From Candidatus Schneideria nysicola (GTDB lineage: Bacteria; Pseudomonadota; Gammaproteobacteria; Enterobacterales; Enterobacteriaceae): a stretch of DNA of 64,000 nt. The DNA lies in NCBI RefSeq assembly GCF_019923565.1, contig NZ_CP074435.1:310176-374175 (forward strand), written 5' to 3'. The notes under the pieces were generated by a model that worked only from the letters and a program-made list of their open reading frames with translations, was not told the origin of the DNA and did no database searches. The position numbers and the translations under genes were made by a program. Of this stretch, positions 44,343 to 63,144 are shown one piece after another; the first letter of the stretch is position 1, and the number at the start of each line of letters is the position of its first letter.

Positions 44343-45887
44343 TTAATTTTTTATTCTTATGGGTGGTCGTAAAGTTGGAAATAAAATAACATCTCGAATA
44401 GAAGGACGATTAGTAAGTAACATAACTAATCTATCAATACCAATTCCTAATCCAGCGGTTGGAGGCAAACCGTATTCTAATGCATGAATATAGTCTTCAT
44501 CATAAAAAGCAATATCATCGGAACATTCGTATTTTTTGTTTATTACTTGATGATGAAAACGTATAGCTTGTTCTTCTGGATCATTGAGTTCGGAAAAACC
44601 ATTACTGATTTCACATCCATAAATAAATAATTCAAATCTATCTGTTACAGATGGATTATGATCATTACAACGTGCTAACGGTGAAACTTCTACTGGATAT
44701 GCTGTAATAAAAGTAGGTTTAATTAAATATTTTTGTATTTCTGATTCAAATATTTCTGTTTGTATTCGACCAATACCCCAATTTTTTTCTATTTTTACAT
44801 CTATTGATTGAGCAAAAGAACTTAATATAGTAAAATTATCTATATTTTCTACATTTAGAATGGATTGAAAACGACGACAGATTGCTTCTTTCATGGTCAT
44901 TTTATCAAATGGTTGATTTATATTAACGGTATAATCTTTATATTGTATTATATAATTTCCCAACACACACTTAGTAATAGTACGAATTAAATCTTCCAAT
45001 AATATCATAAGGTCTTGGTAATCTGCATAAGCCATATAAATTTCTATCATAGTAAATTCAGGATAATGATAGGATGATATCCCTTCATTACGAAAATTAC
45101 GATTGATTTCAAATAATTTTTCAAATCCTCCAATAACGAGTTGTTTTAAGTATAATTCTGGTGCAATGCGTAAATACATATCCATATGTAGTGCATTATG
45201 ATAGGTGCGAAAAGGTCGAGCTGTTGCTCCACCAGGTAAAGTCTGTATCATAGGTGTTTCTACTTCTAAAAAATCAAGATTAATCAAAAATTGACGAATT
45301 TCTTTTATAATTAATGATCTGTTTTGAAAAACAGATCTTGATTCCTTATTAGTAATTAAATCTAAATAACGTTTTCTATAGCAAGTTTCTTTATCCGAAA
45401 GACCATGAAATTTTTCTGGTAATGGTCGTATAGATTTAGTTAATAAACGAATTTCTTTACATAAAACTGATAATTCTCCCATATTAGTTCGAAATAGTTT
45501 CCCTTTTATACCAATTATATCCCCTAAATCCCATGTTTTAAATTGAGCATAATCATTTTGCCGAAATAAATGATTATATGATATATAAAGTTGTATTTGT
45601 CCTCCCATATCTTGAATAACAGCAAATGAAGCTTTTCCCATTATACGTTTTTTCATTAAACGACCAGCTAGAATCACTTGAATATTTAATTGTTCTAACT
45701 CATTTTTGCTTGTTTTAGCATATTGTATATGTAATTGATTAGTAATAGCGTTACGACGAAAATCGTTTGGAAATGCAATCCCTTGTTCACGAATTTTTTT
45801 TAACTTGTTTCTGCGAGAGATTAATTCAGTATTAATATCATTTGGATATATTGTTGTATTATTATCTTTGGAAGATGATTGAAACAT
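44343..45887 (-). CDS. lysS: Lysyl-tRNA synthetase (class II)
   Basis: OB-fold anticodon domain first (residues ~65-150), then the class II core: motif 2 [16 protein letters not shown] and motif 3 [12 protein letters not shown]. Length 514 against 505. First-copy lysS in the conserved recJ-prfB-lysS order; its stop lies two bases from the tRNA-Arg end on the other strand. Confidence 0.97.
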
Positions 45888-45910: not shown

Positions 45911-47018
45911 TTATAGTCCTAATTTAAGACTAGTCTTAATAAATTCTTCTAAATTTCCATCTAATACCGATTCTATATTACGAGTTTCTAACCCAGTACG
46001 CAAATCTTTAATACGTGAATCATCAAGTATATATGAACGAATTTGGTTACCCCATCCTATTTCAGATTTATTATTTTCTAATATTTTTTTTTCTAAAAAC
46101 TTTTTATCTTTTTCAATCTTAAATAATTTCGCTTTTAATTGCAGTAAAGCTCTTTCTTTATTTTTATGTTGGGATCTATCACTTTGACATTGTGTAACGA
46201 TTTTAGTAGGAAGATGTGTAATACGTACAGCAGATTCGGTCCGGTTTACATGTTGTCCCCCAGCTCCAGATGCTCGATAAACATCAATACGTAAATCTGA
46301 TGGATTAATAGTAATATTAATATTATCTTTTATTTCTGGATAAACAAAAACGGAACCAAATGAAGTGTGACGACGACCTCCAGAGTCAAATGGACTTTTA
46401 CGTACTAAACGATGAATGCCTGTTTCTGTGCGCATCCAATTATAAGCATAATCTCCTATTATTTTAATTGTTGCAGATTTAATTCCAGCTTTTTCTCCTT
46501 CTGATTTTTCAATAATTTCCGTTTTAAATTTTCTAATTTCTGACCATCTAAGATACATACGCAATAATATTTCTGCCCAATCTTGAGCTTCAGTTCCTCC
46601 AGAGCCTGCTGTTATATCCATATAACAATCAGAAATATTTTCAGGATTTTTAGCAAATAAATAAAAATATTCAATATTATTAATATGATTTTCTACATTA
46701 TTTAGAGATTCTTGTAACTCAAGAGCAAATTCTTCATCATATTGATCTTCTATTAGTTCTATTAAATTTATTATATCTGTTATATTTGTCTTTAATTGAT
46801 TGATTTGATTGACAATTAATTCAAGAATAGTAAGTTCTTTTCTTAATTTTTTTAATTGAATAGGATTTCTCCATATATTAGGAGATTCAAGTGAACTATT
46901 AATTGCTTTTATTTCTTTTTTTTTAGTCTTATAGTTAAAGATACTCCATTAAAATATTTTTTCTTCTTAAGATATCTTGAAGACGATTTTTTATGAGATG
47001 AATTTCAAATATAGACAT
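45911..47018 (-). CDS. prfB: Peptide chain release factor 2, expressed by programmed +1 frameshift
   Basis: RF2 terminates at UGA and UAA. The start ATG is at 47018; 27 codons later the zero frame ends at UAA (46937-46935) after CTT. Skipping one T restores the frame, which is then open to 45911, giving 368 residues against 365. The SPF specificity tripeptide (KSPFDSGG) and catalytic GGQ (GAGGQHVN) are intact. N-terminal residues [13 protein letters not shown] match E. coli FEINPVNNRIQDL. A tool that ignores frameshifting sees only the 236-residue C-terminal part from 46621. Located between recJ and lysS as in E. coli. Confidence 0.95.
46934..46947 (-). promoter_or_regulatory. prfB: prfB programmed +1 frameshift site with UAA stop
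   Basis: On the minus strand the bases read GGAG TAT CTT TAA C. An internal Shine-Dalgarno-like GGAG three bases before CTT, the slippery CTT and the following C all match the classic RF2 site, but the stop is UAA, not UGA. Zero-frame codon 28 is the stop. Confidence 0.92.
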
Positions 47019-47060: not shown

Positions 47061-48806
47061 TTAATTTTCAACAGCTAGCTCTAAAGGCCAAATATAATGA
47101 ATTATTAATTGTATTGTTTTATTTTGCTTATAATTTTTAATATTTAAACTATAAGCTAATTTCACATTATCTTTTTCATTAAAAAGATTTGATTTCATAT
47201 GAAAAGCAATAGCATCGTATTGAATACCTTGGGAATCTATTGATTCTAATATAAATTTGAAATATTTTCCTTTAACGTTTTTTTTACTTATAATTTTAAA
47301 ATTTCCATCAAATATAGGTTCAGGAAATCCATTCCCCCAAGGTCCTCCATAACGTAATAATTCCGCAGTAGAGAAGGATAATTCATTCTTACTAAGTTTA
47401 CCATCAGACCAAATAATATTTCTATTCATAGAAACACAACTTTTTCTAAGTAAATGAGTAAATTTAGAACGAAACCATTCTAAATCTTTTTGAATTATAC
47501 TTAAACCAACTGCCATAGCATGTCCACCAAAATTTAATATTTTATTAGGATATTTTCTTTTTATTTTTTCTATAATATGATAAAGATTTAAACCTATTAT
47601 TGATCTTCCCGATCCTTTTAATATATTATCTTCTGCTGGAGCAAAAACAATAACAGGCAGAGAAAAGTGATCTTTAATACGTGAAGCTATAATTCCTATA
47701 AGACCTTGATGCCATTTAGGATGATAAATGACTAAACCAGATGAGTCTTTCTGAGTATAATTCGAATTATTACACATTTTCATTGCCTCAACTTCCATTT
47801 GTTTTCCTATTTTTTTACGTATTCTATTAAAATAATCTAATTTTTTTATATATTCATGAATTTGAATTCTATCTTCAGCTAATAATAGTTTTACACTTAA
47901 AGACATATCATCTAATCTACCTGCTGCATTTAATCTTGGAACAATAAGAAAACTTAGATCTTTTTCACATAATATATTAATAGGATAATGAATAGATTCT
48001 ACTAATTTACGAATACCTAAACGACATTTTCCTGCACGTATTCTACAAATACCTTGATATACTAGAATACGGTTATTAGTATCCAATTTGACTACATCCG
48101 CGACTGTACCTAATGCCACTAAATCTAAAAACTCTGCTAAATTTGGTATTGAAATATTTTTTTGAATAAACCATCCTTGTTGTTTTAAAAATGCTCTTAA
48201 TGCTAACATTAAGTAGAATGCTACACCAACACCCGATAAGTATTTAGAAGCAAAATTAGAATTCATTAGATTTGGATTTATAATTACATTAGCAGGAGGT
48301 AAATTGTTATTTGGCGGAATATGATGATCAGTAATTAATACTTTAATATTATTATCTAATGCTAAATTTATACCATCATAAGATGAGATACCATTATCTA
48401 CTGTTAAAATGATTTCTGCTTTTTTCATTAAAGCTTCTTCTACTATCTTTGTAGACAAACCATATCCATGTATAAATCGATTAGGTATTAAAAAATCAAG
48501 ATATTTTGCTCCCATTTTTCTTAATGCTAGTATTACTAAAGCTACACTAGTAGCACCATCAACATCAAAATCTCCTATTATGACTAATCTAGAATCTTTT
48601 ATTATGGATTCAGCTAAAAGATGTACTGCTTTATCGATATTATTTAGACTTTGATAAGATAATAACGCTTGAGTACTACGATTGATTTGATTAATATTAT
48701 TAATTCCACGTTGAGCATAAATACGTTTGAGTAATGGAGGAATATTCTTATCTTTTTCCCAAAGTATAGTGTCTTTTATTTTTCGATGTTTTAATTGAAT
48801 ATCCAT
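47061..48806 (-). CDS. recJ: Single-stranded-DNA-specific exonuclease RecJ
   Basis: 5'-3' exonuclease of recombination and mismatch repair. DHH phosphoesterase motifs: GDFDVDGATS, TVDNGIS, ITDHH, and the DHHA1 domain with GGHAMAVGLS. I chose ATG 48806 (MDIQLKHRK), giving 581 residues against 577; an upstream TTG extends it by 16 hydrophobic residues with no homology. Upstream of prfB as in E. coli; xerD and dsbC, its enteric neighbours, are missing. Confidence 0.95.
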   Translation of the reverse strand: MDIQLKHRKIKDTILWEKDKNIPPLLKRIYAQRGINNINQINRSTQALLSYQSLNNIDKAVHLLAESIIKDSRLVIIGDFDVDGATSVALVILALRKMGAKYLDFLIPNRFIHGYGLSTKIVEEALMKKAEIILTVDNGISSYDGINLALDNNIKVLITDHHIPPNNNLPPANVIINPNLMNSNFASKYLSGVGVAFYLMLALRAFLKQQGWFIQKNISIPNLAEFLDLVALGTVADVVKLDTNNRILVYQGICRIRAGKCRLGIRKLVESIHYPINILCEKDLSFLIVPRLNAAGRLDDMSLSVKLLLAEDRIQIHEYIKKLDYFNRIRKKIGKQMEVEAMKMCNNSNYTQKDSSGLVIYHPKWHQGLIGIIASRIKDHFSLPVIVFAPAEDNILKGSGRSIIGLNLYHIIEKIKRKYPNKILNFGGHAMAVGLSIIQKDLEWFRSKFTHLLRKSCVSMNRNIIWSDGKLSKNELSFSTAELLRYGGPWGNGFPEPIFDGNFKIISKKNVKGKYFKFILESIDSQGIQYDAIAFHMKSNLFNEKDNVKLAYSLNIKNYKQNKTIQLIIHYIWPLELAVEN

Positions 48807-48884
48807 TCTATAATGAAAAAATAATATAAAATAATGAAATTTAAATAATAACAATAAAAATTATTTATTATAAATAAATATTAT

Positions 48885-51117: not shown

Positions 51118-51493
51118 GGGGCTGTTTTTTGGATTTGACGGTATTGGCAATATTTTAGGTGCATGTCGGGAATAAGGTTACCCGTAAATATCCTTCAAAA
51201 TATAAATGCAAATAAAGTAAAATACGAACCATTAGCTTTAGCAGCTTAGTCAACATTAAAAATGTTGTAGGTTCTCCTTTCTATACTTTGCTCTTGAGTA
51301 TAGAAAATGGATCATTGAAAAGAGATCGCATAAATATCTTGTCTATAGATATAATGTTAAATCTAATATAGACTAATTTATTGAATTATGTGTTCATCTA
51401 TAATCAATAAGTGAAAAATAATGATGAAATAAGCATGTAGTACCGATGATAGAGAAATACCGGACGCGGGTTCGAATCCCGCCAGCTCCACCA
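51118..51493 (+). ncRNA. ssrA: tmRNA (SsrA)
   Basis: 376 nt. The 5' GGGGCTG and 3' CAGCTCC-ACCA form the tRNA-like acceptor, with GGATTTGACGG and GGTTCGAATCCC as in E. coli. The tag reading frame 51208-51249 starts GCA AAT and encodes ANKVKYEPLALAA followed by TAG. The tag is longer than E. coli ANDENYALAA but keeps the ALAA degron end. CCA is encoded. A TATAAT at 51101-51106 may be its -10. It lies 62 bases after smpB, as in enterics. Confidence 0.97.
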
Positions 51494-62955: not shown

Positions 62956-63035
62956 ATATTTTTAATGGTGAACAAATAAATAATATAATATATAATATAT
63001 GATTTTTTTAAATATATCAAGTATTAATTATTATT

Positions 63036-63120
63036 TACCGAGGACGGGATTTGAACCCGTAAACCTAAATTAGGCACTACCCCCTCAAGATAGCGTGTCT
63101 ACCAATTTCACCACCTCGGT
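63036..63120 (-). tRNA. leuU: tRNA-Leu (GAG)
   Basis: 85 nt, acceptor ACCGAGG/CCTCGGT, long variable arm, anticodon loop CTTGAGG with anticodon GAG (reads CUC/CUU). CCA is not encoded. It follows secG, as leuU does in E. coli. Confidence 0.95.
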
Positions 63121-63144
63121 AAGTAATTATTTCTCTGAATAGTA

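Follow-up and report, generated by a model that had tools for sequence, protein, structure and literature searches.

Release factor 2 (RF2) controls its own synthesis through a textbook frameshift circuit, and the identity of the stop codon inside its gene, prfB, is taken as the key to the logic of that circuit. Here we analyse a prfB site whose internal stop is UAA, found in 64,000 nucleotides of the Candidatus Schneideria nysicola genome (assembly GCF_019923565.1, contig NZ_CP074435.1, positions 310,176 to 374,175 of the forward strand); this whole stretch is called the window below, and coordinates refer to it. The available parts of the survey of Prince et al. (2025; PMC12421855) report a premature stop in 8,164 of 12,753 prfB genes, with TGA in 98.6% of these, TAA in 1.4% and TAG in none, and the title of Fig. 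S1 describes TAA as ‘poorly represented and randomly distributed’. The same parts record that early surveys already included one sequence without TGA, and describe 21 genomes with a poly-T shift sequence that have TGA as the stop. An earlier note on the window had stated that known sites use CTT TGA C, which is too strong in the light of these figures. Its statement that UAA is read by both release factor 1 (RF1) and RF2 is established and is restated in the accessible text of PMC12421855, where it is also argued that in most bacteria RF2 may be the main reader of UAA. According to the accessible portion of a review (PMC5009743), the largest study of shift codons put UAG in place of UGA and its values agree with those of a smaller study with UGA; the shift as such therefore does not depend on UGA.

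All elements of such a site are in register in the window. prfB lies on the minus strand, where its zero frame begins with the ATG at 47018–47016 and runs for 27 codons to an internal stop (46935..47018), its 3′ end reading GGAG TAT CTT TAA C. The internal Shine–Dalgarno-like GGAG (46944..46947) lies three bases ahead of the CTT shift codon (46938..46940) and has a pairing energy of −5.9 kcal/mol; this and all other pairing energies were computed against the E. coli 16S tail. Together with the T of the stop, the shift codon forms the slippery CTTT, immediately 5′ of the in-frame TAA (46935..46937) that stands where TGA is usual, and a C follows the stop (46934). A +1 shift enters the second frame at AAC (46936), which opens 341 intact codons closed by a TAA at 45913–45911 (45911..46936 in all) and encodes RF2 (profile TIGR00020, 450–452 bits, cut-off 370). 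The earlier note had placed the site exactly (46934–47018), and its reading of the zero frame, of the shift needed for full-length RF2 and of a retained internal Shine–Dalgarno, slippery codon and following C is borne out, with the qualification that the Shine–Dalgarno is weaker than usual. The stop is readable by RF2, as UGA and UAA are and UAG is not; it is not the RF2-specific UGA of the majority form, but UAA is a published minority form and the assignment to the class stands. The pattern GGAGNNNCTTTAAC is found a single time in the window, where 0.05 occurrences would be expected, and 4 of 100 shuffles contain it at least once. A stronger argument against chance is position: the window site lies at codon 28 of prfB, and 26 of the 27 large-genome family members read carry a site of the same kind, with TGA, at that place. 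All elements being in register, and the position being that of the relatives, the window site is therefore an inherited RF2 frameshift site. Very probably it is an enterobacterial +1 site that is still required, and in which UGA gave way to UAA by drift under AT pressure and relaxed selection.

The window genome, a single contig of 572,184 bases, belongs to an enterobacterial-type family in which large and small genomes are both numerous, and its size and AT content suggest that the organism is a symbiont. prfB loci were examined in 170 genomes overall. From this family 392 genomes were drawn, with sizes rounded to 0.1 Mb, and 125 of them, the window genome included, were small (≤2.4 Mb). All 125 were searched for RF2 at a match threshold of E ≤ 1e-84; six gave no match and were left unread, and the 119 loci read comprised 65 with a frameshift site, 37 in frame, 13 unclear and 4 with no hit under the GGQ-motif rule. 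Among the 267 large genomes, 27 were read and the remaining 240 were covered by a narrow TAA pattern only. This pattern matched 3 of the 392 family genomes, all ≤1.8 Mb, and no TGA version was run as a sensitivity control. In three genomes (G020, G050 and G059), where a long frame is open upstream, CTT TGA C was assigned by hand; hand assignment accounts for one of the 26 large-genome sites. Three unclear rows remain outside the counts: in G082, CTT TAA C precedes a short frame of 298 residues, and in both G307 and G198 (the latter of genus g63) CTT TGA likewise precedes a short frame. The p-values given below are guides only, related genomes not being independent.

The large-genome members were uniform: 26 of the 27 read have the site, every one of these is CTT TGA C, and none has UAA; the sole genome without a readable site, G028, is 49% complete. 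Small genomes differed, with TGA at 45 of 65 sites (window included) and TAA at 20, 17 of these after CTT and three after TTT. By genus, TAA was present in 14 of the 35 small-genome genera with a site, as compared with 0 of 26 large-genome genera (Fisher p = 1.2e-4), and four genera (g62, g125, g134 and g151) contain both TAA and TGA sites. Stop identity changes at least 12 times on a quickly built RF2 tree with 90 rows. UAA is thus ordinary for small-genome members of this family; the earlier note, which had treated it as unusual, had allowed that many related genomes with UAA would make it so. Elsewhere in the order, 24 genomes of other families yielded 19 sites, all TGA, and four in-frame genes, while G052 gave an RF1 match only, though the script had scored it in frame. 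Titled loci of another collection (the best 80 among the matches listed) comprised 71 with CTT TGA and nine with no site under the rule, and none with TAA. We regard the concentration of UAA in small genomes as a modest addition to the published picture of random distribution; neither this concentration nor its repeated origin in small-genome members was seen in the passages covered or among the literature matches listed.

The terminal stop of the same gene provides an internal comparison. Of the 65 small genomes that have a site, 50 end prfB with UAA, eight with UAG and seven with UGA, as against 45 UGA and 20 UAA at the internal stop. An internal TGA was combined with a terminal TAA in 30 genomes and the reverse in none (p = 2e-9; 17 to 0 by genus). 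The residue after the shift is set by the stop and the next base, and in the 37 small genomes whose prfB is in frame this position takes nine values (N 12, D 7, K 5, E 5, Q 4 and one each of G, H, C and L). Residues with G-initial codons occur in 13 of these 37, compared with 45 of the 65 genomes with a site (p = 0.0016). The variety of residues in in-frame genes and the rarity of G-initial codons there suggest that it is the recoding signal, not the protein, that maintains UGA. Selection for UGA in small genomes thus seems to be relaxed but not absent. The internal Shine–Dalgarno is kept at small-genome TAA sites, with a median of −10.5 kcal/mol against −7.2 at TGA sites.

Several observations weigh against this account. 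The window's own Shine–Dalgarno, at −5.9 kcal/mol, is weaker than the median of −10.7 in large-genome members, and a 16S search of the window genome gave no match, although the search equally missed five of 14 control genomes. Only 10 of 20 UAA and 26 of 45 UGA sites in small genomes retain the C that follows the stop, so the signal appears to be loosening in general. Locus GC medians in small genomes were 0.216 (UAA) and 0.254 (UGA; p = 0.05); GC thus barely separates the two classes, which are not sorted by AT pressure alone. The RF2 tree is of one gene with long branches and several long rows, and 25 of its 87 inner branches are open.

UAA might instead mark a decaying site, at which feedback is effectively gone and the changed stop is a step towards loss of the frameshift by an indel. 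In-frame genes make up 37 of the 119 small-genome loci, and the available text of PMC13245932 shows that poor frameshifting selects in-frame deletions. Asn, which is what a UAA site would place at this position, is found in 12 of the 37, which is suggestive; AT bias would, however, give the same. UAA sites nevertheless retain a strong internal Shine–Dalgarno, and in the six genera that mix in-frame and frameshift members the counted frameshift members are UGA-only in five (g11, g69, g72, g116 and g144) and UAA in g63 alone; the g63 row dropped from this count has UGA. As a general rule, UAA as the usual stage before frameshift loss was therefore rejected, and decay at the window site is improbable. 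We find it less probable again that UAA is adaptive, with RF2 output following total release capacity (RF1 plus RF2) in a way that suits a genome with few UGA-ended genes. Few such genes are indeed seen in the window, where GC is 27% and 52 mechanically called open reading frames (ORFs) end in UAA 39 times, UAG 10 times and UGA three times, and the spread of UAA over 14 of 35 genera, at sites that retain the internal Shine–Dalgarno, would fit. UGA is nonetheless still the majority form (45 of 65) and exceeds its terminal-stop level by 30 discordant genomes to 0, so that UAA looks tolerated rather than favoured, and four genera contain both states.

We give very little credence to two further ways of dispensing with a UAA shift site. 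An assembly or base-call error at one position is conceivable because the window's genus is represented by a single genome in the sample, but a TAA internal stop occurs in 19 other small genomes, 16 of them after CTT. RF2 could also be made without a frameshift, from a start within the +1 frame, where an ATG at 46621 opens a 236-residue ORF. Such a product would lose the first 105 residues of the frame, and the shift site is located as in relatives; the case against an internal start is weakened by the thin conservation of those residues, of which L16, F94, C104 and Y105 do not vary in an alignment of 13 sequences.

Given an inherited site that is still required, a single G-to-A change would have turned the internal UGA into UAA. 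A ribosome that has translated the 27 zero-frame codons is predicted to pause once UAA occupies its A site, and one of two outcomes would follow. Either a release factor terminates a 27-codon peptide, or tRNA-Leu(GAG), aided by the internal Shine–Dalgarno, would slip from CUU to UUU and the RF2 frame would be translated; that ribosomes shift here, and with what efficiency, is a prediction. Because RF1 also reads UAA, termination at this codon could answer to both factors, and a loop built on it should answer less specifically to RF2. The weakened feedback proposed in the earlier note is therefore plausible. If UAA is read mainly by RF2, as the available text of PMC12421855 argues, feedback may persist. 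In a small genome, UAA probably spread by AT-biased mutation and drift while selection for UGA was relaxed but still present. A broader proposal, which we advance tentatively and think unlikely to be right, is that small-genome enterobacterial lineages have repeatedly changed an RF2-only sensor (UGA) to an RF1-shared one (UAA), so that RF2 tracks total termination capacity. If this were true, UAA would amount to a genuine regulatory state in small genomes and not a rare random exception.

The other components expected of this circuit were sought in the window and its genome. tRNA-Leu(GAG), which is expected to decode CTT and to slip there, is encoded at 63035..63121 on the minus strand and is among the five leucine tRNAs found by the tRNA search; its E. 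coli role at the prfB shift codon is restated in the accessible part of PMC13245932. RF1 (471 bits, cut-off 423) and PrmC (over its cut-off) are both encoded. RF3 was not found in the window genome, the best prfC match reaching 178 bits against a cut-off of 467 and a second search giving none either. In E. coli K-12 without RF3, prfB frameshifting rises from ∼28% to ∼47%, according to the available text of PMC5373646, and absence of RF3 could likewise favour shifting at the window site. Loss of RF3 as the cause of UAA was considered and rejected: RF3 was found in 5 of 20 UAA and 22 of 45 UGA small genomes with a site, a difference that is not significant (Fisher p = 0.10, genomes not being independent). 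Reassignment of UGA in the window genome is also unsupported, RF2 being intact and UGA ending three of the 52 ORFs, although the ORF calling itself took UGA as a stop. A tmRNA gene lies at 51118–51493, with the tag peptide ANKVKYEPLALAA, and is retained though RF3 was not found. prfB is flanked upstream by recJ (47061..48854, minus strand; TIGR00644, 482.6 bits, cut-off 396.9) and downstream by lysS (44343..45887, minus strand; TIGR00499, 653.9 bits, cut-off 427.6), the same neighbours as in E. coli.

Several loci among the relatives depart from the common forms. A minority shift codon and a minority stop coincide as TTT TAA C, with GGAGG retained, in L038 and L229 (genus g22) and L214 (genus g88). 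L173 (G144, genus g145) reads GGAGG TAT GTT TGA T, unlike the three members of its genus that were read, which have TTT TGA. Val is an unusual choice of shift codon, and an error or a site on its way to failure could account for it. No Shine–Dalgarno-like run precedes either CTT TGA C in L035 (G007) or CTT TAA C in L238 (G234). In L155 (G173), GGGG TAT CTT TAA G persists though prfB is in frame from its start, and looks like a relic of the site that is read through in the RF2 frame. The RF2 open frames of genus g77 (L226, L196, L200, L204 and L239) have no ATG and no frameshift site at the expected place. Among the ∼0.3-Mb genomes of genus g126, three of four (G125, G235 and G369) gave no RF2 match at the search threshold and the fourth, L254 (G308), gave one that contains three internal TGA; this pattern could reflect prfB decay or a changed reading of UGA.

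For the window alone, a UAA site is ordinary. Across small genomes, the pattern suggests that selection on a single recoding codon is relaxed and not lost, and the repeated change from UGA to UAA supplies naturally occurring variants in which the need for RF2-specific reading can be examined.

In conclusion, the window site shares with the E. coli type (CUU UGA C) its gene, its position near codon 26, an internal Shine–Dalgarno with a three-base spacer, the CUU shift codon, the C after the stop and an obligatory +1 shift. It differs in its UAA stop, read by RF1 as well as RF2, in the weaker Shine–Dalgarno GGAG and in having Asn rather than Asp after the shift. With the premature-TAA sites described in the available parts of PMC12421855 it shares CTTTAA in the same motif and a scatter over lineages, whereas such sites are 1.4% of 8,164 there and here 20 of 65 in small genomes and 0 of 26 in large ones. 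The prfB genes that have lost the frameshift, described in the accessible text of PMC13245932 and PMC12421855, have counterparts in this group too (37 of the 119 small-genome loci read); unlike them, the window gene still requires the shift. UAA at prfB is not new, and the window site is a further case of this known minority form.
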